61,620 bases of DNA from a virus, in IMG/VR virus record IMGVR_UViG_3300028559_000041, positions 1 through 61,620 of that record. One strand, given 5' to 3'. A model generated the notes under the pieces. That model was not told the origin of the DNA and did not search any database. It worked only from the letters and a program-made list of their open reading frames with translations. This document shows, one piece after another, positions 44,181 to 60,182 of the stretch; within the stretch, counting starts at the first letter, position 1, and every line of letters begins with the position of its first letter. A program made the translations under genes and the position numbers.

Positions 44181-44786
44181 ATGAGAATTGAACATCAAAA
44201 CATCCATTTCGCTAGTGATTACCACATTGGCCATCACAATGTCATTAGATTTGACGGAAGGCCGTTTGTAAGTATAGAAGAAATGCATGAAACACTTATT
44301 AAAAACTGGAACTCAGTAGTTGAAGATGAAGATATAGTATTTTACTTAGGTGACTTTGCTTTTAAAGATAAAGGTGAACCAAAGTGGTTTAGAGAACAAT
44401 TAAAAGGTAAGATTTATTTTATAATGGGAAACCACGATAGAATAAGAGACATATCTAAATTAGGATTTGAAAAAGTATTTGGTGATGATACTGCTCTTGG
44501 TGGAGCAACTATATCAGTAAAAGATGAAGATGCAAATAGAGGATATCAAGATATAATAATGTGTCATTATCCAATACTTTCTTGGAATAAAGCACATCAT
44601 GGTTCGTGGCATATTCACGGACATTGTCACCAATCACTGGCTAAAAACCCAGAAATGGATTGGTATTACAAAAGAAAAGTTATAGATGCTGGAACTAATG
44701 GATTAGGATATACACCGATATCTTACACAGAGTTGAAAAAGATTATGAATGAAAAGATTGTATCATCAGTAGATCATCACGAATAA
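44181..44786 (+). CDS. Metallophosphoesterase
   Basis: 201 residues. Calcineurin-like motifs in order: ASDYHIGHHN (D13, H15), FYLGDFAFKDKG (about residues 53-64), IMGNHDR (about 82-88), MCHYPI and HIHGHCHQS. Close to the small phage and bacterial phosphoesterases that act on nucleotides or nucleic acid ends; the exact substrate cannot be read from the sequence. Its stop overlaps the next ATG (TAATG). Confidence 0.85.
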   Translation: MRIEHQNIHFASDYHIGHHNVIRFDGRPFVSIEEMHETLIKNWNSVVEDEDIVFYLGDFAFKDKGEPKWFREQLKGKIYFIMGNHDRIRDISKLGFEKVFGDDTALGGATISVKDEDANRGYQDIIMCHYPILSWNKAHHGSWHIHGHCHQSLAKNPEMDWYYKRKVIDAGTNGLGYTPISYTELKKIMNEKIVSSVDHHE

Positions 44787-44980
44787 TGAAAGTACTTTGT
44801 ATAGATAACAAAAATGTTTCACTATCTTTAACAATTGGAGAATGGTATAAAGTAATTTCAGAAGATGAACATACTTATCTCATTGATAATGATCACGCAT
44901 ACACAAAAAGAATTGCTAAAAGTAAATTTTTATCAAAGGAAGAACTACGACAACTTAAACTAGAAAAATTAGGCATATGA
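44786..44980 (+). CDS. Small SH3-like phage protein
   Basis: 64 residues, MKVLCIDNKNVSLSLTIGEW with Y-K-V-I and a short helical end. This matches a common group of tiny phage proteins with a five-strand barrel-like pattern (L-T-x-G-x-W-Y-x-V-I then Y-x-I-x-N-D). It overlaps the genes on both sides, showing tight coupling. Role unknown. Confidence 0.7.
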   Translation: MKVLCIDNKNVSLSLTIGEWYKVISEDEHTYLIDNDHAYTKRIAKSKFLSKEELRQLKLEKLGI

Positions 44981-49042: not shown

Positions 49043-50194
49043 ATGTTACGATATTTAAAACACATAAAAGAAGAATTAAACATCAGCAAAATGACTGATG
49101 CCGATTTTAGTAATTTATTAAAAAATATTACTACTAATCTGGATCAATATAAAAATTCAATATTATTTAATATTGAATATAATCTTAAAACCAATAAAAT
49201 TGAGTATAAAGATTTTAATAATATCAATGTACCTCAAATTATATCACAACTAAATTCAAGTTTAGGAAAAGATATTGTAGATCAATTTAATATTGAATCT
49301 TTTCTAAGAAAAATTAATCAAATTTTAGATTTGAAGAAAAGAAATACTAAAAAGAAGATTAAAGAAGAATTTATAAGTTATTATTCTTCATTAGAAGATA
49401 GATTTGAAGAAGAATCACAAGATTCTAAAGAAGAAGACCATTTTGATAGAGTAGAAGGAGAACACTCTCTAATAACACGTAGAAAATATGAAGATGAGAA
49501 ATATGATATTCAAGTTGAATTAATGAAACTACAAGAATGGGTTATTAAAAATAATGAAAGAGTTGCAATTGTTTTTGAAGGTAGAGATTCAGCTGGTAAA
49601 GGTTCAACTATTAAAAGATTTATTGAGTATTTAAATCCTAAACACTTCAGAGTTGTTGCTCTTGGATTACCAACAGAAGAAGAGAAGAATAATTGGTTTG
49701 GTAGATATGAAAAACACTTACCAAACCCAGGTGAAATTGTTTTCTTTGATAGATCTTGGTATAATAGAGGAGTTGTTGAACCAGCAATGGGTTATTGCAG
49801 CGAAGAACAATATATGAACTTTATAGAAAATGTTGGAGATTGGGAGGAATCAATGATTAAAAAAGGATTAATTCTAATTAAATTCTGGTTTTCTATAACA
49901 AAAGAGAAACAACAATTAAGATTTGAGTTAAGAAAACAATCACCTTTAAAGTATTGGAAGTTTTCACCAAATGATGCAAAAGTTGTTGATAAATGGGACA
50001 TAATAACCAATTATAAGAATCAAATGTTTAATAAAACTTCAACAAGAATGTCGCCTTGGGTGATAATAAATTCTAACGATAAAAAAATAGGAAGATTAAA
50101 TGCAATGAGATATGTTTTAGATAAAATAAAATATGACAATAAAGATGAAACAAAATGTCATTGGTATCCAGAAGTAGTAAATATTTTAAAATAA
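49043..50194 (+). CDS. Tagged PPK2-type polyphosphate kinase
   Basis: 383 residues. The start MLRYLKHIKEELNISK resembles the tag. Residues 20-160 are an added helical, acidic region. The PPK2 core follows: Walker A FEGRDSAGKGSTIKRF (about 176-191), lid and Y-L-N-P-K-H-F, Walker B FFDRSWYNRGVVEP (about 233-246), and the end W-V-I-I-N-S-N-D-K-K-x-x-R-L-N-A. PPK2 moves phosphate between polyphosphate and nucleotides, usually to make ATP or GTP from the diphosphate. If packaged, it could support energy supply at infection. It ends in a strong terminator. Confidence 0.88.
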   Translation: MLRYLKHIKEELNISKMTDADFSNLLKNITTNLDQYKNSILFNIEYNLKTNKIEYKDFNNINVPQIISQLNSSLGKDIVDQFNIESFLRKINQILDLKKRNTKKKIKEEFISYYSSLEDRFEEESQDSKEEDHFDRVEGEHSLITRRKYEDEKYDIQVELMKLQEWVIKNNERVAIVFEGRDSAGKGSTIKRFIEYLNPKHFRVVALGLPTEEEKNNWFGRYEKHLPNPGEIVFFDRSWYNRGVVEPAMGYCSEEQYMNFIENVGDWEESMIKKGLILIKFWFSITKEKQQLRFELRKQSPLKYWKFSPNDAKVVDKWDIITNYKNQMFNKTSTRMSPWVIINSNDKKIGRLNAMRYVLDKIKYDNKDETKCHWYPEVVNILK

Positions 50195-51342: not shown

Positions 51343-51702
51343 ATGTCTAAATTTATTTTAAAAAAAGATTGGATTCTAAAATACACAATTTTAGATAAAC
51401 AAGGTCAAGAATTACTATACACAAAAGGTAAAATATTCGAACCTAACGAACACGGAGAGTATATAATATCAAGTACACACGGTCAGATGATACTCAAATA
51501 TAAGGACATGAAATCGTCTGTTGATGGAGAAGATCTTCTATTTGAAGAAGTAGAGGAACTTCCAGAAATAAAAATTTCTCTTTTGGAAGAAGATGAAGAT
51601 GCTATAAAAAATTATAGACTTCAATTGGATGTTAAAACAACACCAAGAAAAGCAAAAGAGATTGAAAATTATTTAAGAAAAACTTTACAAGAAATGTTAT
51701 AA
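51343..51702 (+). CDS. Unknown 119-residue protein
   Basis: MSKFILKKDWILKYTILDKQ opens a beta-rich first half (Y-T-K-G-K-I-F and G-E-Y-I-I-S), followed by acidic helices with KTTPRKAKEIENYLRK. No family recognised. It may share a transcript with the UvsY-like gene 28 bases upstream. Confidence 0.65.
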   Translation: MSKFILKKDWILKYTILDKQGQELLYTKGKIFEPNEHGEYIISSTHGQMILKYKDMKSSVDGEDLLFEEVEELPEIKISLLEEDEDAIKNYRLQLDVKTTPRKAKEIENYLRKTLQEML

Positions 51703-51787: not shown

Positions 51788-52396
51788 ATGAAAATAATAT
51801 GTATTTACTCTATAAAAAATATGGAAAATGAAAAGATATATATCGGTAGTTCAGTTGATTTCAATAGAAGGAAAAGAGTGCATTTAAATTTACTTTTTAA
51901 AAATAAACATCACTCAATAAAGCTTCAAAATAGTTTTAATAAACATGGATTTGATAAATTTCATTTTAGTATTTTAGAAATGGTTGACAGTATCGATTTA
52001 TTAATAGAAATTGAGCAAAAATATTTAACAAAACTTAAACCGGATTTAAATATGACACATATAGCTGGATTAAACTCACATATCGGCTTAAAAAGGAGTG
52101 AAACAACTAAAGAGAAAATAAGATTGTCAAATACTGGAAAATTAACATCAGAAGAGACTAAAGAAAAACTTAGACAACATAACTTAGGAAAAAAACAAAG
52201 TAAGGAGACAAAAGATAAAAAGGCAAAAGCACTTTACAAACCAATTATACAAATCAAAAATGATGGAGAAACGATTGAATGGGAGAGTGCAACAGTTGCA
52301 TCCAATGTATTAGGTATAAGTAGAAGAGTAATATATGCGTGTCTTTGGGGCACAAAAAAGACCTATAAAAAAAGTAAATGGATTTATAAAAAATAA
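51788..52396 (+). CDS. GIY-YIG homing endonuclease
   Basis: 202 residues. Nuclease domain: CIYSIKN (residues 5-11), KIYIGSS (16-22), R27/R30, and the catalytic Glu in IEIEQKYL (about 74-81). Two NUMOD3-type pieces follow (G-L-K-R-S-E-T-T-K-E-K, L-T-S-E-E-T-K-E-K), then a NUMOD1-type DNA-binding domain (SATVASNVLGISRRVIYACL) and the end KTYKKSKWIYKK. It is inserted between the 51343 gene and the NAD salvage operon, which starts four bases after its stop. Confidence 0.93.
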   Translation: MKIICIYSIKNMENEKIYIGSSVDFNRRKRVHLNLLFKNKHHSIKLQNSFNKHGFDKFHFSILEMVDSIDLLIEIEQKYLTKLKPDLNMTHIAGLNSHIGLKRSETTKEKIRLSNTGKLTSEETKEKLRQHNLGKKQSKETKDKKAKALYKPIIQIKNDGETIEWESATVASNVLGISRRVIYACLWGTKKTYKKSKWIYKK

Positions 52397-52400
52397 AAAA

Positions 52401-53336
52401 ATGAAAAGTTTAGAAGAATATCAAATTGGATGTGTATGTGGTAGATTTCAAGTACATGAACTACACGATGCTCATAGATATGTTATCGACCAAGTTGTTA
52501 ATAATCACAAAAAATCAATTATATTTTTAGGAGTTCCTAAAGTAGTTGGTACTAAAAAGAATCCACTAGACTTCGATACTCGTAAAAAGATGATTCAATC
52601 ATCTTATCCAGACACATTGATACTATCACTTCCCGATATAGGTGATGATTTTAAATGGACTGCTGAATTGGACAAAAGAATTAGAGAAGTCTATCCAATA
52701 GGTGATGTTGTTTTATATGGTGGTAGAGATTCTTTCATACCATATTATCAAAAAGGAAAAGGACAATTTGATTGTAAAGAATTAGACCAATATACATTCG
52801 TATCTGGAACAGAAGTTCGAAAAATTGTATCCGAAACAGTTAAAAATTCTACCGATTTTAGAGCTGGTGTTATTTATAACGCCTACAACCAATATCCAAA
52901 AGTTCACCCTTGTGTAGATATAGCTATTTTAGATGAAAACTGTACTATGATTCTCTTAGCAAAAAGACCATATGAAAGTGGTTGGAGATTTATTGGTGGA
53001 TTCGCACATCCAAGCGATTCATCATATGAATCAACAGCAAAAAGAAAGATATCTCAAGATGCAGGTGATAACTTAGAAACATCAGATCTTGCCTATATTA
53101 ATAGCACAATGATTCCAGACTGGAGATATCGGGGAGAAGAAGATAAAATCATTAGTGTCTTGTATAAGACAAAATATATTGGTGGAGTAATTGAACCATC
53201 CGATGATGTAAGCGAACTTAAATGGTGGAATTTACATGATATATCACAATATTGGTTTGATGTAGAAGATAATGTAGTTGGACCAATTGTTGATGAACAT
53301 AAACCTTTATTAAAAATACTTTTAAAAAATATATGA
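52401..53336 (+). CDS. NMN adenylyltransferase fused to a degenerate Nudix domain (NadM-Nudix)
   Basis: 311 residues from the ATG at 52401; the longer frame runs back into the GIY-YIG gene. N-terminal nucleotidyltransferase: GRFQVHELHDAH (residues 14-25), DVVLYGGRDS (102-111) and SGTEVRKIV (135-143). It makes NAD from NMN and ATP. The C-terminal Nudix fold begins WRFIGGFAHP, but where active enzymes have R-E-x-x-E-E-x-G this one reads RKISQDAG (215-222), so the metal-binding Glu residues are lost. The layout is that of KVP40 NatV. First gene of the NAD operon, coupled to the next by ATGA. Confidence 0.88.
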   Translation: MKSLEEYQIGCVCGRFQVHELHDAHRYVIDQVVNNHKKSIIFLGVPKVVGTKKNPLDFDTRKKMIQSSYPDTLILSLPDIGDDFKWTAELDKRIREVYPIGDVVLYGGRDSFIPYYQKGKGQFDCKELDQYTFVSGTEVRKIVSETVKNSTDFRAGVIYNAYNQYPKVHPCVDIAILDENCTMILLAKRPYESGWRFIGGFAHPSDSSYESTAKRKISQDAGDNLETSDLAYINSTMIPDWRYRGEEDKIISVLYKTKYIGGVIEPSDDVSELKWWNLHDISQYWFDVEDNVVGPIVDEHKPLLKILLKNI

Positions 53337-54424
53337 AAGTAAACCACTCTCCAGTATCGTATTCATCAATTGTTGAGATTGGTGAAAGAACATTACACCT
53401 TGAAAAAACAACAGGTGAAACCTATTTAAAACTACACCGTGGTGTAATGGATGTTGATATGATAGATCTAAACTCATTTATGAGTGATTTCGATTATAAT
53501 CAAAAGTCCGTACAACAATATGGTGGTAATGATGGTGATTCGGTACTAGTTAATGTTATTAAAGATAAGTTTCACTTAAAAGACCATTATGTAATGACTG
53601 TTCCTGGTGGAATGGCAACACTTGATTTGGTTATCAACTCACTATCAGAAGATAATTTTTGGGTTCCAAAGTATCATTGGGGTTCTTGGAATAAAATACT
53701 TAAAATTCATAATAAAAATACTCAAGAGTTCGATGATTTTAATATTGGTGAATTTAAAGCAAATGATCCAATAGTTGGATTCTCAGGAGTTGTGATGTTG
53801 TGTTATCCTTCAAATCCAACCGGATGGTCTCCTGACTTCGAAGATTTGAAAAAGTTCTTAGACCACTCTAAAGAACATAATATTACAGTCATTTTAGACT
53901 TACCATACTATTATCTTTTCAATGATATCGATAATCCTATTCATGAACTATTTTATGATAATGTGATCGTTATATCATCATTTTCTAAATCAATGGGATT
54001 ATCTGGACTTAGAATTGGATACATTGCGACAAAAAATCAAGAGTTGTATAACTCTATGAAAATACGTTCTTTATATAAGTATAACTCAATATCAACAATA
54101 CCACAACAAGTAATAACAAGATTACTAACAACAGAAGGGGGTAAGACATCTTTAGAAAACTATAAAATGAAAACTCAAGACAGTATTACTAAAAATATAC
54201 AATATTTAAAAGAAAGAGGATTCTTATTTGATGAATATCCATCAACTCCAACAGGACCCTTTGCGATTGTTAATATAAATTTTGATATTCTTTTATTTAA
54301 TCGAATATCTTCCGTACCTTTACATAAATTCTCACTCAACAGAACAGTTAACCCACAATATTCAAGAATATCAGTATCAGTACCACACGAAATATTCAAA
54401 CAATACTTTGACAAAATAAATTAA
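53333..54424 (+). CDS. PLP-dependent aminotransferase (class I/II) in NAD operon
   Basis: 363 residues. Fold-type I motifs: MTVPGGMATLDLVINS for cofactor phosphate binding, CYPSNPTGWSPD (about 157-168), VILDLPYYY with the Asp that contacts the pyridine nitrogen, and SSFSKSMGLSGLRIGY with the Schiff-base Lys at about 218. The C-terminal Arg region SRISVSVP is also present. It resembles aspartate or histidinol-phosphate type enzymes, but substrate cannot be fixed. Its place between NadM and NadV, with ATGA coupling, suggests a role tied to NAD or to an amino-acid derivative. Unusual for phages. Confidence 0.85.
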   Translation: MKVNHSPVSYSSIVEIGERTLHLEKTTGETYLKLHRGVMDVDMIDLNSFMSDFDYNQKSVQQYGGNDGDSVLVNVIKDKFHLKDHYVMTVPGGMATLDLVINSLSEDNFWVPKYHWGSWNKILKIHNKNTQEFDDFNIGEFKANDPIVGFSGVVMLCYPSNPTGWSPDFEDLKKFLDHSKEHNITVILDLPYYYLFNDIDNPIHELFYDNVIVISSFSKSMGLSGLRIGYIATKNQELYNSMKIRSLYKYNSISTIPQQVITRLLTTEGGKTSLENYKMKTQDSITKNIQYLKERGFLFDEYPSTPTGPFAIVNINFDILLFNRISSVPLHKFSLNRTVNPQYSRISVSVPHEIFKQYFDKIN

Positions 54425-54431
54425 TAAACAT

Positions 54432-55871
54432 ATGGAACCAAATATCTTATTACTCACAGACTCTTACAAACCAACACACTGGAAACAACTTCCTAAAGGC
54501 GTAACGATTTTAAGATCTTATCTTGAAAGTCGTGGTGGTAAATTTGACAACACTCTATTTTATGGTCTTCAATATATCATAAAAGAGTATCTACAAGGTA
54601 AAGTAATTACTTTGAATAAAATCAATCGTGCTAAATTATTTTGGGACGCACATCTTGGACCAGGTCATTTTAATATGGATGGATGGTTACATATTTTAGA
54701 AAAACATAACGGACACTTACCAGTTATTATTAAAGCTGTTCCAGAGGGAACAGTTGTTCCAACAGGAAATGTTCTTTTGACTATTGAAAATACAGACCCA
54801 GAAGTTCCTTGGTTGACAAACTATCTTGAATCATTACTTTTACAAGTTTGGTATCCAATTACGGTTGGAACACTTTCAAGAGAAGTTAAAAAAGTTCTTG
54901 TCGATTATTTAGTAAAAACATCAGACCATGATGAAAATGGAATTCGTGGAATTGTGAGTTTTATGCTACACGATTTCGGATTCCGTGGAGCATCATCTGT
55001 TGAAAGTGCAGGTATTGGTGCATCTGCTCACCTTATTAACTTTAAAGGAACAGATACTGTTGAAGGTATTCTATTAGCACAAGAGTATTACAATACTTTA
55101 GATATGTTGGCATTTTCAATTCCAGCATCCGAACACTCAACTATTACATCTTGGAGTGAACCACTTGAGGTTAAGGCATTTGAAAATATGTTAGACCAGT
55201 TCCCTACTGGATTGGTAGCTTGTGTATCTGACTCATTTGATATTATCAGAGCTTGTAGAGACCATTGGGGAACTACTTTACGAGATAAAATCTTAAATCG
55301 TGACGGTCGTCTTGTAATTCGTCCTGATAGTGGTGACCCTGTTCAAACATTGAAACAAATCTTTCATATTCTTTGGGATAAATTTGGTGGAACTGTTAAT
55401 AAAAAAGGATTTAAAGTTATTGATCCACACGTCAGAGTAATTCAAGGTGATGGTGTAAACTATGACTCTATTATCGAGATTCTTGATATGATGGTTGAAG
55501 AAGGATTTGCAGCAGAGAATATTGCATTCGGTATGGGTGGTGCTCTTTTACAAAAAGTAGATAGAGATACTCAAAAATTCGCTATCAAATGTTCATCAAT
55601 TGTAATTAATGGTGAAGAAGTTGAGGTTCAAAAGAATCCAATTGAGATTAATGAAAAAGGCGAAAGAGTTAAATCATTTAAAAAGTCAAAAGCAGGTAGA
55701 TTGAAGTTAATTAATAATAATGGAGTATTTGAAACTATCCAACATTGTCAGGATTTTAGTGGTGATATTTTAGTACCTATTTTTGAAAATGGACATATTC
55801 TAAAAGAATGGACATTTGAAGAAGTTCGTGAAAGAGCCGAAGTAAAAATTAATGTTGAGGAATTAGTTTAA
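54432..55871 (+). CDS. nadV: Nicotinamide phosphoribosyltransferase (NadV/Nampt)
   Basis: 479 residues, full length for the family. Conserved blocks: LLTDSYKPTHWKQLPKG at the start, YLESRGG, HDFGFRGASSVESAG, SIPASEHSTITSW with the catalytic His (about 235), RPDSGDPV (about 297-304) and FGMGGALLQKVDRDT. It joins nicotinamide and PRPP to give NMN, which the NadM of the same operon turns into NAD. Phages such as KVP40 carry the same pair, and such pairs can refill NAD drained by host defence NADases. Confidence 0.95.
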   Translation: MEPNILLLTDSYKPTHWKQLPKGVTILRSYLESRGGKFDNTLFYGLQYIIKEYLQGKVITLNKINRAKLFWDAHLGPGHFNMDGWLHILEKHNGHLPVIIKAVPEGTVVPTGNVLLTIENTDPEVPWLTNYLESLLLQVWYPITVGTLSREVKKVLVDYLVKTSDHDENGIRGIVSFMLHDFGFRGASSVESAGIGASAHLINFKGTDTVEGILLAQEYYNTLDMLAFSIPASEHSTITSWSEPLEVKAFENMLDQFPTGLVACVSDSFDIIRACRDHWGTTLRDKILNRDGRLVIRPDSGDPVQTLKQIFHILWDKFGGTVNKKGFKVIDPHVRVIQGDGVNYDSIIEILDMMVEEGFAAENIAFGMGGALLQKVDRDTQKFAIKCSSIVINGEEVEVQKNPIEINEKGERVKSFKKSKAGRLKLINNNGVFETIQHCQDFSGDILVPIFENGHILKEWTFEEVRERAEVKINVEELV

Positions 55872-56659
55872 TGAATAATTGTAGAACTCTATCTAAAGAA
55901 GAGGGTGAATATTGGTCAGATAAAATATTTTCTGCTCCTTATACAGTTCCTTCCGGCATTACACCAGGTGGGTATGGAAACGGTTATATTATAAGGGATA
56001 AATTTGGACTTCCCGAAATTTATAATCCTAATTCTATTAGTAGAAAAAATATAAATTATAGATTTGCTTTTTCAATCTCAAAAAATAATATTCAAAGATT
56101 TGAAAACCTTTTAAATCAATTCTTAAAAGATGGATGTAATCACACTTTATATGAAAGTGGAAATAAAGAATATTATCAAAACTTTGAATTTAATGATCTA
56201 AATATACTAAGAGAAATTGAGGTAAGAGAGGAACATCAAACATATGGAGTTGACTTTGTTAAATTTACTTATGAATTTAAAGGTTCTCCAGCATTGGCTA
56301 CAATATTCTTCATACAAACAGTAAAAGATGTAATTAATATAATTGGTGAATATTGGGGATTTGATAAAGATGGAGGGGAAGTTTGCTCTATAAAATATCC
56401 AGTTGGCTCAATAGTATCAACTAAAGATAAAAAATTGGATTTCTTTATAGAGTCAATAATATTTGTTAGAGAAAATACACTTAAATTTAAAGAATTGAAG
56501 TTAAAATATGGTTTCAAAGAAGAATTATTGTTATATAATTTACTTGAAATTGTGAAAAATAACAATTCACAAGTTTTGGAATTTTCAGATGTTCTTACAA
56601 CATCATCAGATTTTATAATTCCAAATAGAGGTCAAAGATTAGATGAACTTTTAGGATAA
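55871..56659 (+). CDS. Unknown protein, last gene of the NAD operon
   Basis: 262 residues, translationally coupled to NadV (TAATG). Starts MNNCRTLSKEEGEYWSDKIF; contains an early G-x-x-P-G-G-Y-G-N-G-Y-I-I-R-D segment and later W-G-F-D-K-D-G-G-E-V. No membrane helix or recognised enzyme motif. Its strict linkage to NAD genes makes it a candidate accessory factor, but the sequence does not show a function. Confidence 0.65.
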   Translation: MNNCRTLSKEEGEYWSDKIFSAPYTVPSGITPGGYGNGYIIRDKFGLPEIYNPNSISRKNINYRFAFSISKNNIQRFENLLNQFLKDGCNHTLYESGNKEYYQNFEFNDLNILREIEVREEHQTYGVDFVKFTYEFKGSPALATIFFIQTVKDVINIIGEYWGFDKDGGEVCSIKYPVGSIVSTKDKKLDFFIESIIFVRENTLKFKELKLKYGFKEELLLYNLLEIVKNNNSQVLEFSDVLTTSSDFIIPNRGQRLDELLG

Positions 56660-56684
56660 AAAAAGACCCGTAAGGGTCTTTTTT
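56656..56684. terminator. Bidirectional terminator after the NAD operon
   Basis: Stem AAAAAGACCC with GGGTCTTTTT and loop GTAA, between the convergent NAD operon and the tagged cluster. Confidence 0.9.
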
Positions 56685-56685
56685 A

Positions 56686-56961
56686 TTACATTTCATCATT
56701 ATCCAAACCAATTGCATAATTCAATTCGTCAAGAACAGCATCAAGAGTAGTATCTACATCATCCTCAGTATAGAAAATTCCATCCCAATATCCAGTAAGT
56801 TGAGGAACATCCTCACGAGCAACAGTACTGTTATAAGTATCCATAATATCTTCAGGTGAAGCAAATTCTCCAAGTTCCATTCTAATTCCTGAATAGACTT
56901 CCGGTATATGGATTTTATCAGAGTTGTCTAAATTTTCATTAAATCTTTTTAAGTATTTCAT
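56686..56961 (-). CDS. Small tagged protein (cluster of six)
   Basis: 91 residues starting MKYLKRFNENLDNSDKIHIP. Very acidic, with D-D-V-D-T-T-L-D near the end. Last gene of the tagged cluster. No family recognised. Confidence 0.7.
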   Translation of the reverse strand: MKYLKRFNENLDNSDKIHIPEVYSGIRMELGEFASPEDIMDTYNSTVAREDVPQLTGYWDGIFYTEDDVDTTLDAVLDELNYAIGLDNDEM

Positions 56962-56997
56962 ATTATTTATTTGTTTTTATTTCTTCATTGGTTGATT

Positions 56998-57585
56998 TTA
57001 CTTCTTTAAATCATCAACTGCCTTTAAGAAAGACTTTAAACTCTTTGTGAGTTCATCTAAAGTTTTAAACTTAGATATCTTACCAGTAAACATATTAACA
57101 ATATCTTTAGGATTTCTGAAAAGATCGTTCGAGAGATACTTGAATGTCTCTTTAGTTTCATCATCAGACTCATTATATAAATCTTTTAATGGTCTTACTA
57201 ACCCATTATAGAGTTTTGGTCTACCATCCTTACTTTCAAAAATGAAACTTTCGGAACTATTAAAAGATGGTGCTATTGCTTTGATGAAGTTTTCATAATC
57301 ATCAAATTTGTATGGCTTTTGAATTGGTGGTGTTGGTTTATAACCTGCTTTAACAGCTGCGTCCAAAACCTGTTCTTCTTTCTCATGAGTTTTTTTACTT
57401 CCAGTAAATGGAAAATTACTACGATCTCCAGTTAAACTCATCATTGAATTTTCGTGATCAACCATTTCTTTTCCCCATAATTCACCACAATCTTGAACCA
57501 TCTTCAAAAGATTTTCGTCTGGTGTAAATATATACGTTTGTGATTCAGTGTTCTCAAACATTTTGAATTTTTTTAAATGTTTCAT
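56998..57585 (-). CDS. Tagged protein (cluster of six)
   Basis: 195 residues starting MKHLKKFKMFENTESQTYIF, a model tag with F-E-N-T-E. Mostly helical, with a Pro-rich turn (YKPTPPIQKPYKF) in the middle and a Lys-rich end. No family recognised. Confidence 0.75.
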   Translation of the reverse strand: MKHLKKFKMFENTESQTYIFTPDENLLKMVQDCGELWGKEMVDHENSMMSLTGDRSNFPFTGSKKTHEKEEQVLDAAVKAGYKPTPPIQKPYKFDDYENFIKAIAPSFNSSESFIFESKDGRPKLYNGLVRPLKDLYNESDDETKETFKYLSNDLFRNPKDIVNMFTGKISKFKTLDELTKSLKSFLKAVDDLKK

Positions 57586-57605
57586 AATTTAGAATTATTT
57601 TTATT

Positions 57606-57615
57606 TATATATTAA
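57606..57615 (-). promoter_or_regulatory. TTAATATATA box within the tagged cluster
   Basis: Exact minus-strand copy, 20 bases before the ATG at 57585. Confidence 0.3.
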
Positions 57616-57617
57616 TT

Positions 57618-58331
57618 TTATTTACTAGATAATCTAATGGTTTCTCCAGTTGATAATTTTTGATATTCGTAACCAATAAACTTCTCTCCTTTTTCCAACA
57701 TTTGAATGCAATAGTGCATCGTTGCCTTATCACCACCTCTAGAATCCTGAACTAATTTACCAGCTAAATCAATTGATTTGTTGGCAAGTGTAACCGCGTC
57801 TTGACCAAATGAATTGATATCATTTGGGTTAATAACACCACCGGCATCACGAAGTTTTATTAAGTAAGCAGTTGTTTTAGCAACATCCAATTCACTGACA
57901 TTACTTAATCCACCATGTTCTTTCATATCATTAATTAAACCAATTGCTAAATTGATATATTCAGTTTCGATAGGTTTTCCAGTTGTGGCTGCATAAGCAG
58001 CACTGCCAGAAATTATTAAAATTAAGATCACTAAAATCGTGATAACTAATACTTTAAACAACACTGGATTTTTTTCTTTAAAACTCCTTATCTTGTTTAT
58101 TATCCAAGAAAAAATCGATTTAACTTTTTGCAATATTTTAAAACCAATTATTACAGATTGAGTCAAAATAGTCCAAAATACATCAACTACTTTTTGTTTA
58201 ATCCATTTTAAAAAATCAAATAAATCTTCATTTAATGAGTCTAAATAATTAAATAAAGTTTCTTTCGAGATTTTATCTTGTAAGAACAATTCAACTGGAT
58301 TGTAGTTATTAAAGGATTCAAGGTGTTTCAT
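57618..58331 (-). CDS. Tagged membrane protein (cluster of six)
   Basis: 237 residues. Starts MKHLESFNNYNPVELFLQDK. An amphipathic helical stretch (residues 40-80) leads to one strong membrane helix (about 90-113, LFKVLVITILVILILIISGS), then a soluble C-terminal domain. If the tag sends it into the capsid, a membrane helix is unexpected; it may insert into the host membrane at injection. Overlaps the 58328 gene by four bases. Confidence 0.75.
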   Translation of the reverse strand: MKHLESFNNYNPVELFLQDKISKETLFNYLDSLNEDLFDFLKWIKQKVVDVFWTILTQSVIIGFKILQKVKSIFSWIINKIRSFKEKNPVLFKVLVITILVILILIISGSAAYAATTGKPIETEYINLAIGLINDMKEHGGLSNVSELDVAKTTAYLIKLRDAGGVINPNDINSFGQDAVTLANKSIDLAGKLVQDSRGGDKATMHYCIQMLEKGEKFIGYEYQKLSTGETIRLSSK

Positions 58332-58621
58332 TTAGCATAATTCGGTGTTCTTCCACTGCCTTTTGAACCTTCTTTTTCAACTTTTCTTTTTCTAGCAACA
58401 GATGCCTTTTTTTGTTTTTTAGTCATTCTAGCAGCTACTCTAACCTTTCTACATTTAGGATATCCACCCTTACTAGTATCAGATCTTCCGCATGGTGGAT
58501 GTGATCCATCAGGATTAGTTTTTGATATATCTACCCACTTTTCCTTGAACCATTTGTCCAAGCCGCCTTTGGTTTTCTTTTCTTCTAATATAAAATCCTC
58601 AAAAAGTAATATATGTTCCAT
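58328..58621 (-). CDS. Tagged basic protein with conserved phage module (cluster of six)
   Basis: 97 residues. Starts MEHILLFEDFILEEKKTKGG, then a module found on its own in many large phages: LDKWFKEKWVDISK, PPCGRSDTSKGGYPKCRK with two Cys, and a very basic end (MTKKQKKASVARKRKVEKEG). The basic charge suggests DNA contact inside the head. Its ATG overlaps the upstream stop (TAATG). Confidence 0.75.
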   Translation of the reverse strand: MEHILLFEDFILEEKKTKGGLDKWFKEKWVDISKTNPDGSHPPCGRSDTSKGGYPKCRKVRVAARMTKKQKKASVARKRKVEKEGSKGSGRTPNYAK

Positions 58622-58986
58622 TATTTCTTACTTGATTTTTTCTTTTTCCATTTACCACCTTTAGACTTATATCTCTTAGCAGCTGCTCCACAGGCATAAG
58701 CGGAAGGCCAAACATCATATTTCGATTTCGCCCAAGCCTTACAGGCATTCCACAGTTTGGAATTTGTCGCAACATTTTTTTCATTTATAATCGATTCTAG
58801 AATATCATCATCGTAGTTGTCATCATCGTAGTTGTCATCATCATCTGGATAATTACACTCTGGGCAACAATCACAATCTTTCTCACCAATACACTCAGGA
58901 CAACATCCACATCCTTTATATTCTGGAAAGAAAATAAAATCGTTTTCTTCTTCGTCAAAATTTTCAAATAGTTTTAAATACTTCAT
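58621..58986 (-). CDS. Tagged Cys-rich protein with conserved phage module (cluster of six)
   Basis: 121 residues. Starts MKYLKLFENFDEEENDF. It has a Cys-rich segment (CGCCPECIGEKDCDCCPEC) that probably binds metal, an Asp-rich run of D-D-D-N-Y, and a C-terminal module NSKLWNACKAWAKSKYDVWP followed by Y-A-C-G-A-A-A-K-R-Y-K-S-K-G-G-K-W, common in large-phage proteins. The last 15 residues are Lys-rich. Function unknown; likely a virion protein. Confidence 0.75.
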   Translation of the reverse strand: MKYLKLFENFDEEENDFIFFPEYKGCGCCPECIGEKDCDCCPECNYPDDDDNYDDDNYDDDILESIINEKNVATNSKLWNACKAWAKSKYDVWPSAYACGAAAKRYKSKGGKWKKKKSSKK

Positions 58987-58990
58987 ATAT

Positions 58991-59353
58991 TTAATTCTTT
59001 TTATAATTATTTAATTTATTTAAAAGTCGTTCAGATTCACTTGTACTATTCCCAACCTTACTAAAAATATCATTAATTACTTCTGTTGGGTCTTCACCCT
59101 CAACAATTCTATGCATCATTTCCTTATAAAGAGGATCTTTTTTATCAATTAACTCTTGTAATTCGATTTTTAAAGCATTAAATGCTGTCCAATATCTAGC
59201 TTCAGAGTCAGATGATAGTCCTGAAACAACAATTTTTGAAAATTGTTTTTCTAGTCTAGTATCTTTACCAAAAATCTCTTCAGCTCTTGATAATGGTTCA
59301 TCATCAGAATCAGAATCATCATTAAATTTTTCAAATAGTTTTAAATACTTCAT
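58991..59353 (-). CDS. Small tagged protein (first of cluster)
   Basis: 120 residues from the ATG at 59353 (MKYLKLFEKFNDDSDSDDEP); an in-frame TTG two codons earlier is less likely. The tag is nearly the same as that of the 58621 gene, and DNA identity there suggests duplication of the tag. The remainder is acidic and helical. No family recognised. Confidence 0.75.
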   Translation of the reverse strand: MKYLKLFEKFNDDSDSDDEPLSRAEEIFGKDTRLEKQFSKIVVSGLSSDSEARYWTAFNALKIELQELIDKKDPLYKEMMHRIVEGEDPTEVINDIFSKVGNSTSESERLLNKLNNYKKN

Positions 59354-59372
59354 AAACAAACTAAATTTTCTT

Positions 59373-59405: not shown

Positions 59406-60182
59406 ATGTCAAAATTAACTATACTATTAAAACCTAATAAATTTGATGACTTTTTAACAAAATTGGAAGATTTAGCTAAAATAAGTGACACGATTAAACT
59501 AAAAATAGATTCAGAAAATATATTAATGTATTCTATTGTTGGAGAAACAATACTTTTGGCATTTAAAAGTTATTTAGTGGATACCAAAGATTATTTTGAG
59601 ATGAAAGAAGATTTGGAAAATACAATAGATATGATAATATCTGGAGCTAAAAAATTTGTCAAAAATCTTAGTTTTATTAAATCATCAGAAAAAATTACAA
59701 TGAATATCGATTATCGAACTACTGATGATGATATATCACTAGTAAGATTTAGTCAAATTAAAAATGGTAAATTAAAAATTGGTCTCCAAGGAGGAGAATC
59801 ATCAGAAATTCGAGATATTAATAAATCTACTTTATCTAAAAGAGTTGATATTAAAAATAGTAAATGGTCTTTTAAAATTGATAAATCAGAATTTCAAGAT
59901 ATTAAAAAATTATCATCAATTAATTCAGATGGTAAAGTAATAAATTTAAATATAGACGATAAAAAAGTTGTCTTATCTGAATCATCTACTTGGGAATTCC
60001 AAGTAGATGAAGTTGATCTAACAGATAGACATTTAATGTTTAATAAAACATTTTTACCATCTATAAATGAAAATAGTGATAAAATTCAATTTTATGTATT
60101 TGATACTTTTATATTAACAAAAGATGAAACAAGTCACTTAATGATTTCATTTGAACAGGATTTTACAAATGATGATGATTAA
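59406..60182 (+). CDS. Sliding clamp (T4 gp45-like), probable
   Basis: 258 residues, beta-rich throughout, with a two-fold pattern: SENILMYSIVGETILLAFKS in the first half and a similar strand series around VVLSESSTWEFQVDEV in the second. It ends LMISFEQDFTNDDD, and an acidic end after F-E-Q-D-F is typical of phage clamps of the gp45 type that I recall. The clamp holds the polymerase on DNA and in T4 also drives late transcription. The gene is next to the split polymerase, as in T4-like phages. Confidence 0.6.
   Translation: MSKLTILLKPNKFDDFLTKLEDLAKISDTIKLKIDSENILMYSIVGETILLAFKSYLVDTKDYFEMKEDLENTIDMIISGAKKFVKNLSFIKSSEKITMNIDYRTTDDDISLVRFSQIKNGKLKIGLQGGESSEIRDINKSTLSKRVDIKNSKWSFKIDKSEFQDIKKLSSINSDGKVINLNIDDKKVVLSESSTWEFQVDEVDLTDRHLMFNKTFLPSINENSDKIQFYVFDTFILTKDETSHLMISFEQDFTNDDD

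Follow-up and report, generated by a model that had tools for sequence, protein, structure and literature searches.

The nicotinamide phosphoribosyltransferase NadV and the putative NMN adenylyltransferase NadM, which a T4-like huge phage encodes together with two further genes, quite probably form a self-sufficient pair of the NARP2 type, whereas the other two genes, an aminotransferase (AT) and a protein of 262 residues (U262), would be independent passengers of the same variable slot, so that gene packing rather than a shared metabolism would explain the operon. According to the homology of both enzymes, NadV should convert nicotinamide and PRPP into NMN and NadM should then adenylylate NMN to NAD, which would complete the restoration of NAD. 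The DNA under study, referred to below as the window, is the whole 61.6 kb virus record (61,620 nucleotides), with a GC content of 25-40% in steps of 2 kb, and contains T4-like phage genes for a large terminase, a UvsX-like recombinase, an SbcD-like nuclease and a T4 baseplate protein.

All four genes described in the initial annotation were recovered as open reading frames on the plus strand: NadM, fused to a Nudix domain (52401-53336), AT (53333-54424), NadV (54432-55871) and U262, the last gene of the unit (55871-56659). The start of NadM is placed at 52401, since a longer reading from 52335 would run into the upstream GIY-YIG gene. The couplings reported for the two additional genes were found as well, in the form of an ATGA overlap between NadM and AT and a TAATG overlap between NadV and U262. 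Directly 3' of U262, an intrinsic terminator with an 11-bp stem and a T tract occurs on the same strand (56659-56684), and a single transcript covering the four genes is plausible. Upstream of NadM on the plus strand lie orf51343 (51343-51702), which codes for 119 residues devoid of any Pfam family and is the usual direct upstream neighbour of AT in the relatives, and a GIY-YIG homing endonuclease (51788-52396; Pfam GIY-YIG, E=6e-12) inserted between orf51343 and NadM. The position of such endonucleases within the slot varies with the phage: the window has one ahead of NadM, locus L008 one in the gap between NadM and AT (L008:7347-7994). The NadM-NadV pair sits in a variable slot bordered by orf51343 on one side and, on the other, by a conserved downstream marker (59406-60182, plus strand) without a Pfam match, which looks like a sliding clamp by eye. 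Overlaps of 1-4 bp occur in 11 of the 42 adjacent same-strand gene pairs of the window, so that coupling of the ATGA type is ordinary there and not diagnostic; in huge phages, tight packing and ATGA overlaps are therefore poor evidence for a shared function.

The identity of NadV as a nicotinamide phosphoribosyltransferase is clear from its predicted domains (Pfam NAMPT_N, E=1e-34, and NAPRTase, E=6e-56), from its score for the NCBIfam model NF006629 (594 bits, cut-off 405) and from its match to phrog_448 (E=1e-160), the closest match among phage records being that of LR756502, with 78% identity. NadM possesses the nucleotidyltransferase motifs GRFQ..ELHDAH and SGTEVR and a recognizable Nudix domain (NUDIX, E=1e-9), and is matched by the NadM models of NCBIfam far below their cut-off (33.9 vs 409). 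However, the Nudix box is degenerate. It reads RKISQDAG instead of RExxEExG in the window and RKISQDAG, RKFMDEAG, RKVSDDAG, RKISEDAG or RVYMKETG across the window and the relatives nearest to it; the window protein does not follow the consensus GX5EX7REUXEEXGU, and the glutamate of the RE pair is missing from all aligned members of the clade. This degeneration extends to all five distinct lineages of the clade, whereas most NadM proteins of the outgroup, including that of LR745206, retain RExxEE. The Nudix hydrolase is probably inactive in this clade, and the loss of its catalytic glutamate pattern suggests that the fusion protein makes NAD only, as would suit an enzyme retained solely for NAD synthesis during infection.

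The proposal that NadM-Nudix and NadV together convert nicotinamide into NAD is supported, as both look like such a salvage pair, and the suggested role against NADase defences agrees with the published reading of such pairs (PMC9503650; NARP2 as summarised in PMC12300627). This part of the initial interpretation is correct and already known in kind: in a published survey, every phage with NadM also possesses NadV, and the pair is read as countering the depletion of NAD (PMC9503650). The present pair resembles NARP2-like salvage in that a NadV-type phosphoribosyltransferase is paired with a putative NMN adenylyltransferase (PMC9503650; PMC12300627) and in that NadM never occurs without NadV, in agreement with the survey (PMC9503650). 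It differs by the degenerate Nudix box of the fused NadM in this clade and by the presence of AT between both genes in the window and in loci L004 and L008. With NARP1, which consists of Adps and Namat (PMC12774641), it shares the principle of a phage pathway that restores NAD by means of a NAMPT-like enzyme but differs in having NadM as the partner. No PF14572 match indicating a PRPP-synthetase-like Adps was found in the record, a fragment in which a divergent Adps could escape this search, and all 14 of 14 controls were detected. Membership in NARP1 was accordingly rejected, the pair resembling NARP2. A possible cassette combining uptake and salvage of NAD precursors occurs near the same slot in LR745206 (L097:7935-11451), where a TonB-dependent receptor, a transporter of the PnuC type (NMN_transporter, E=7e-48) and a protein resembling NadR are encoded in a row.

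The association of AT with the pair was examined in slots anchored on orf50778, a conserved gene independent of both AT and NadV, which identified 42 loci; together with a few loci from the searches with AT and NadV and two megaphage records, these gave 31 non-redundant complete slots. Loci L014 and L039, with NadM, NadV and U262 but without AT, were left out because they did not extend to the downstream marker. Every slot with NadM or NadV has both genes, five slots in all (Fisher p=6e-6). AT and NadV, in contrast, are independently distributed, with both genes in 3 slots, AT only in 10, NadV only in 2 and neither in 16 (p=0.63); these Fisher values are descriptive, since the slots share ancestry, and a moderate association might escape detection with NadV present in only five of them. 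NadV is absent from the whole contig in 16 of the 19 contigs bearing AT, one of 436 kb among them, and a further AT contig contains only a divergent NadV located far from AT; most contigs are fragments, however, and NadV could sit on the missing parts. Conversely, NadM and NadV occur without AT in the 642 kb genome of LR756502 and, at the slot, in L014 and L019.

AT behaves instead as a separate gene of the slot that is usually coupled to orf51343. An ATGA joins the stop of orf51343 to the AT start in eight relatives devoid of NadV, and both genes are inverted together in L064, L067 and L083. The AT tree places the copies linked to NadV in two groups (window plus L004, and L008) nested among NadV-less copies, the starred branches forcing at least two changes of linkage. 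The AT of L005 is 89% identical to that of the window, against 46-68% for the flanking genes, which indicates that AT moves between phages. Either NadM and NadV came to flank AT or AT came between them. These observations speak against the view that AT belongs to the NAD-salvage pathway and against an extension of phage NAD salvage that would otherwise be tempting: since AT shows no association with NadV, mostly occurs without it and is absent from some NadM-NadV pairs, it is not obligate in the salvage route. As to the co-occurrence of both additional genes with NadV in related phages, which had been proposed as a check, AT is independent of NadV, and U262, beside NadV in three slots, also adjoins AT where NadV is lacking.

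AT is recognized as a class I/II PLP aminotransferase (Pfam Aminotran_1_2, E=3e-25), with relatives retrieved initially as seven sequences at 66-95% identity and then as 20 viral loci at 46-95%. The PLP lysine K219, together with D189, N161, Y192 and the C-terminal arginine R345, is invariant in 15 of 15 sequences, and dN/dS amounts to 0.04-0.08 in most near pairs. AT thus represents a strongly constrained, real family of PLP enzymes of phages, apparently phage-specific, whose members would probably be active in transferring an amino group between an amino acid and a 2-oxoacid. Its predicted structure (pLDDT 90) comes nearest to aspartate, aromatic and prephenate aminotransferases, the matches to class I aminotransferases being at 14-20% identity and those to solved structures mostly at 15-20%. 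Along with the fold, AT shares the core PLP residues with these class I/II enzymes, including HisC, and with CobD, but the motifs LKLHRGVMDV and PxYHWGSW are peculiar to the family. No relative was found when about 85,000 species genomes of bacteria and archaea were scanned twice by motif, a search that detects only relatives keeping the motifs, and a cellular origin of AT was thus not borne out. No relevant description of similar phage aminotransferases was found in the open literature searched, and the family brought out here is directly assayable. It is unlikely that AT is another PLP enzyme of fold-type I, such as a decarboxylase or a cyclodehydratase, rather than an aminotransferase. This assignment is suggested by its best NCBIfam scores, for the threonine-phosphate decarboxylase CobD (69 bits), GntC (66.7) and HisC (63), all far below the cut-offs, but the predicted fold ranks the aspartate, aromatic and prephenate aminotransferases first, and R345 and the PLP residues suit a class I aminotransferase, though they are common to the alternative enzymes too.

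U262 gave no significant match to any family. An assignment as carnosine N-methyltransferase (CARME) was rejected, with a score of 20.7 bits (cut-off 27) and a predicted fold unlike that of a methyltransferase. The AlphaFold model is of moderate confidence (pLDDT 73), and a fold search in the PDB and the BFVD viral models yielded nothing with E<=0.001. Four lineages have U262 in the slot; it follows NadV in three of them, those of the window, L004 and L014, whereas in L006/L007 it follows AT in the absence of NadV. Distant relatives, 22-29% identical, occur in LR745206, LR756502, L100 and L101 near a gene resembling a DNA methyltransferase and not beside NadV; in LR756502, the record coordinates of this copy and of NadV differ by about 475 kb. 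The presumed membership of U262 in the pathway of NadV is not supported by these placements, and the best-supported view is that of a second independent passenger of the slot, possibly with some preference for slots containing NadV.

A counterpoint to the passenger reading is that the four genes form one compact unit in the window and in L004, closed by a terminator in the window. The compact layout, with its start/stop overlaps and single terminator, could suggest that AT and U262 extend NAD salvage by producing or consuming another NAD-linked metabolite, an idea also favoured by the conservation of the arrangement in L004, by its persistence in L008 with an inserted endonuclease (U262 being undetected there) and by the three slots in which U262 follows NadV. 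Such an extension is nevertheless highly improbable, given the lack of an association between AT and NadV, the occurrence of AT mostly without NadV, the NadM-NadV pair of LR756502 lacking AT, and an ATGA coupling of AT that is not specific to NadM. To our knowledge, aminotransferases are not known to take part in the salvage of nicotinamide. On the other hand, a NARP1 operon has been shown to cooperate with RyDEP, a gene inserted into it (PMC13232231), so that an inserted gene can be functional and a link of AT or U262 to NAD salvage is improbable yet conceivable. The likeness lies in an additional gene within a phage NAD operon (PMC13232231), but AT mostly occurs without any NAD operon.

The same precedent (PMC13232231) lends some weight to the slot as a hot-spot of counter-defence or host takeover, in which NadM-NadV, AT and U262 would each act on their own, against defences or on the metabolism of the host, in the manner of RyDEP within a NARP1 operon. 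This possibility, though rather unlikely, accords with the variable gene content between conserved flanks, with the exchange of AT between phages indicated by L005 and with the TonB receptor, PnuC and NadR genes that adjoin this slot in LR745206. A PADLOC scan of five genes gave no match for these genes, a weak objection since PADLOC models describe defence and not counter-defence, and the stable association of orf51343 with AT suits ordinary metabolism equally. AT has no known link to defence. It is very unlikely that AT, as a phage-specific PLP enzyme family of huge phages, converts an amino acid of the host or a metabolite derived from defence and, in some lineages, has joined NAD salvage in a single counter-defence operon. 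The independent-passenger reading is preferred to all of these.

Outside the salvage pair, the upstream flank carries a polyphosphate kinase 2 (PPK2; 49043-50194, plus strand), whose additional N-terminal region of about 125 residues is conserved in LR745206, LR756502 and LR756501/LR756503; PPK2 is present in all five NadV-bearing slots (p=0.048, a weak result). Downstream of the terminator, a run of minus-strand genes (56686-59359) codes for proteins beginning with sequences of the type MK.LK.FE.F, which we take to recall the capsid-targeting leaders of T4, and a loose count of this motif in the window shows a modest excess (13 vs 7.7 in shuffled sequences).

Among the relatives of the window are two huge phages, LR756502 (642 kb) and LR745206 (635 kb). 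Five genomes larger than 634 kb, all of the Mahaphage clade and with predicted Bacteroidetes hosts, have been described (PMC7162821); we infer from their size that both phages belong to these five and, hence, that the host of the window phage belongs to the Bacteroidota. Matches to a Bacteroidetes-type promoter pattern were not above chance.

A C-terminal tail of the approximate form R-[DEN]-x-K-[IL]-x-x-[IL] is common to many proteins of these megaphages that are mostly small and otherwise unrelated; it is also carried by U262, where it reads RLDELLG, and by the relatives of U262. In the samples of LR745206 (mainly L094, L096 and L115), it occurs in 28 of 175 genes belonging to 26 families, against 2.7 in shuffled sequences, and in LR756502 (L001 and L095) in 8 of 56 genes against 0.7; LR756501 and KVP40 have 1 of 61 and 0 of 103, respectively. 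In the window, it is found in the genes at 44786-44980 and 55871-56659, and it could serve as a targeting or interaction signal.
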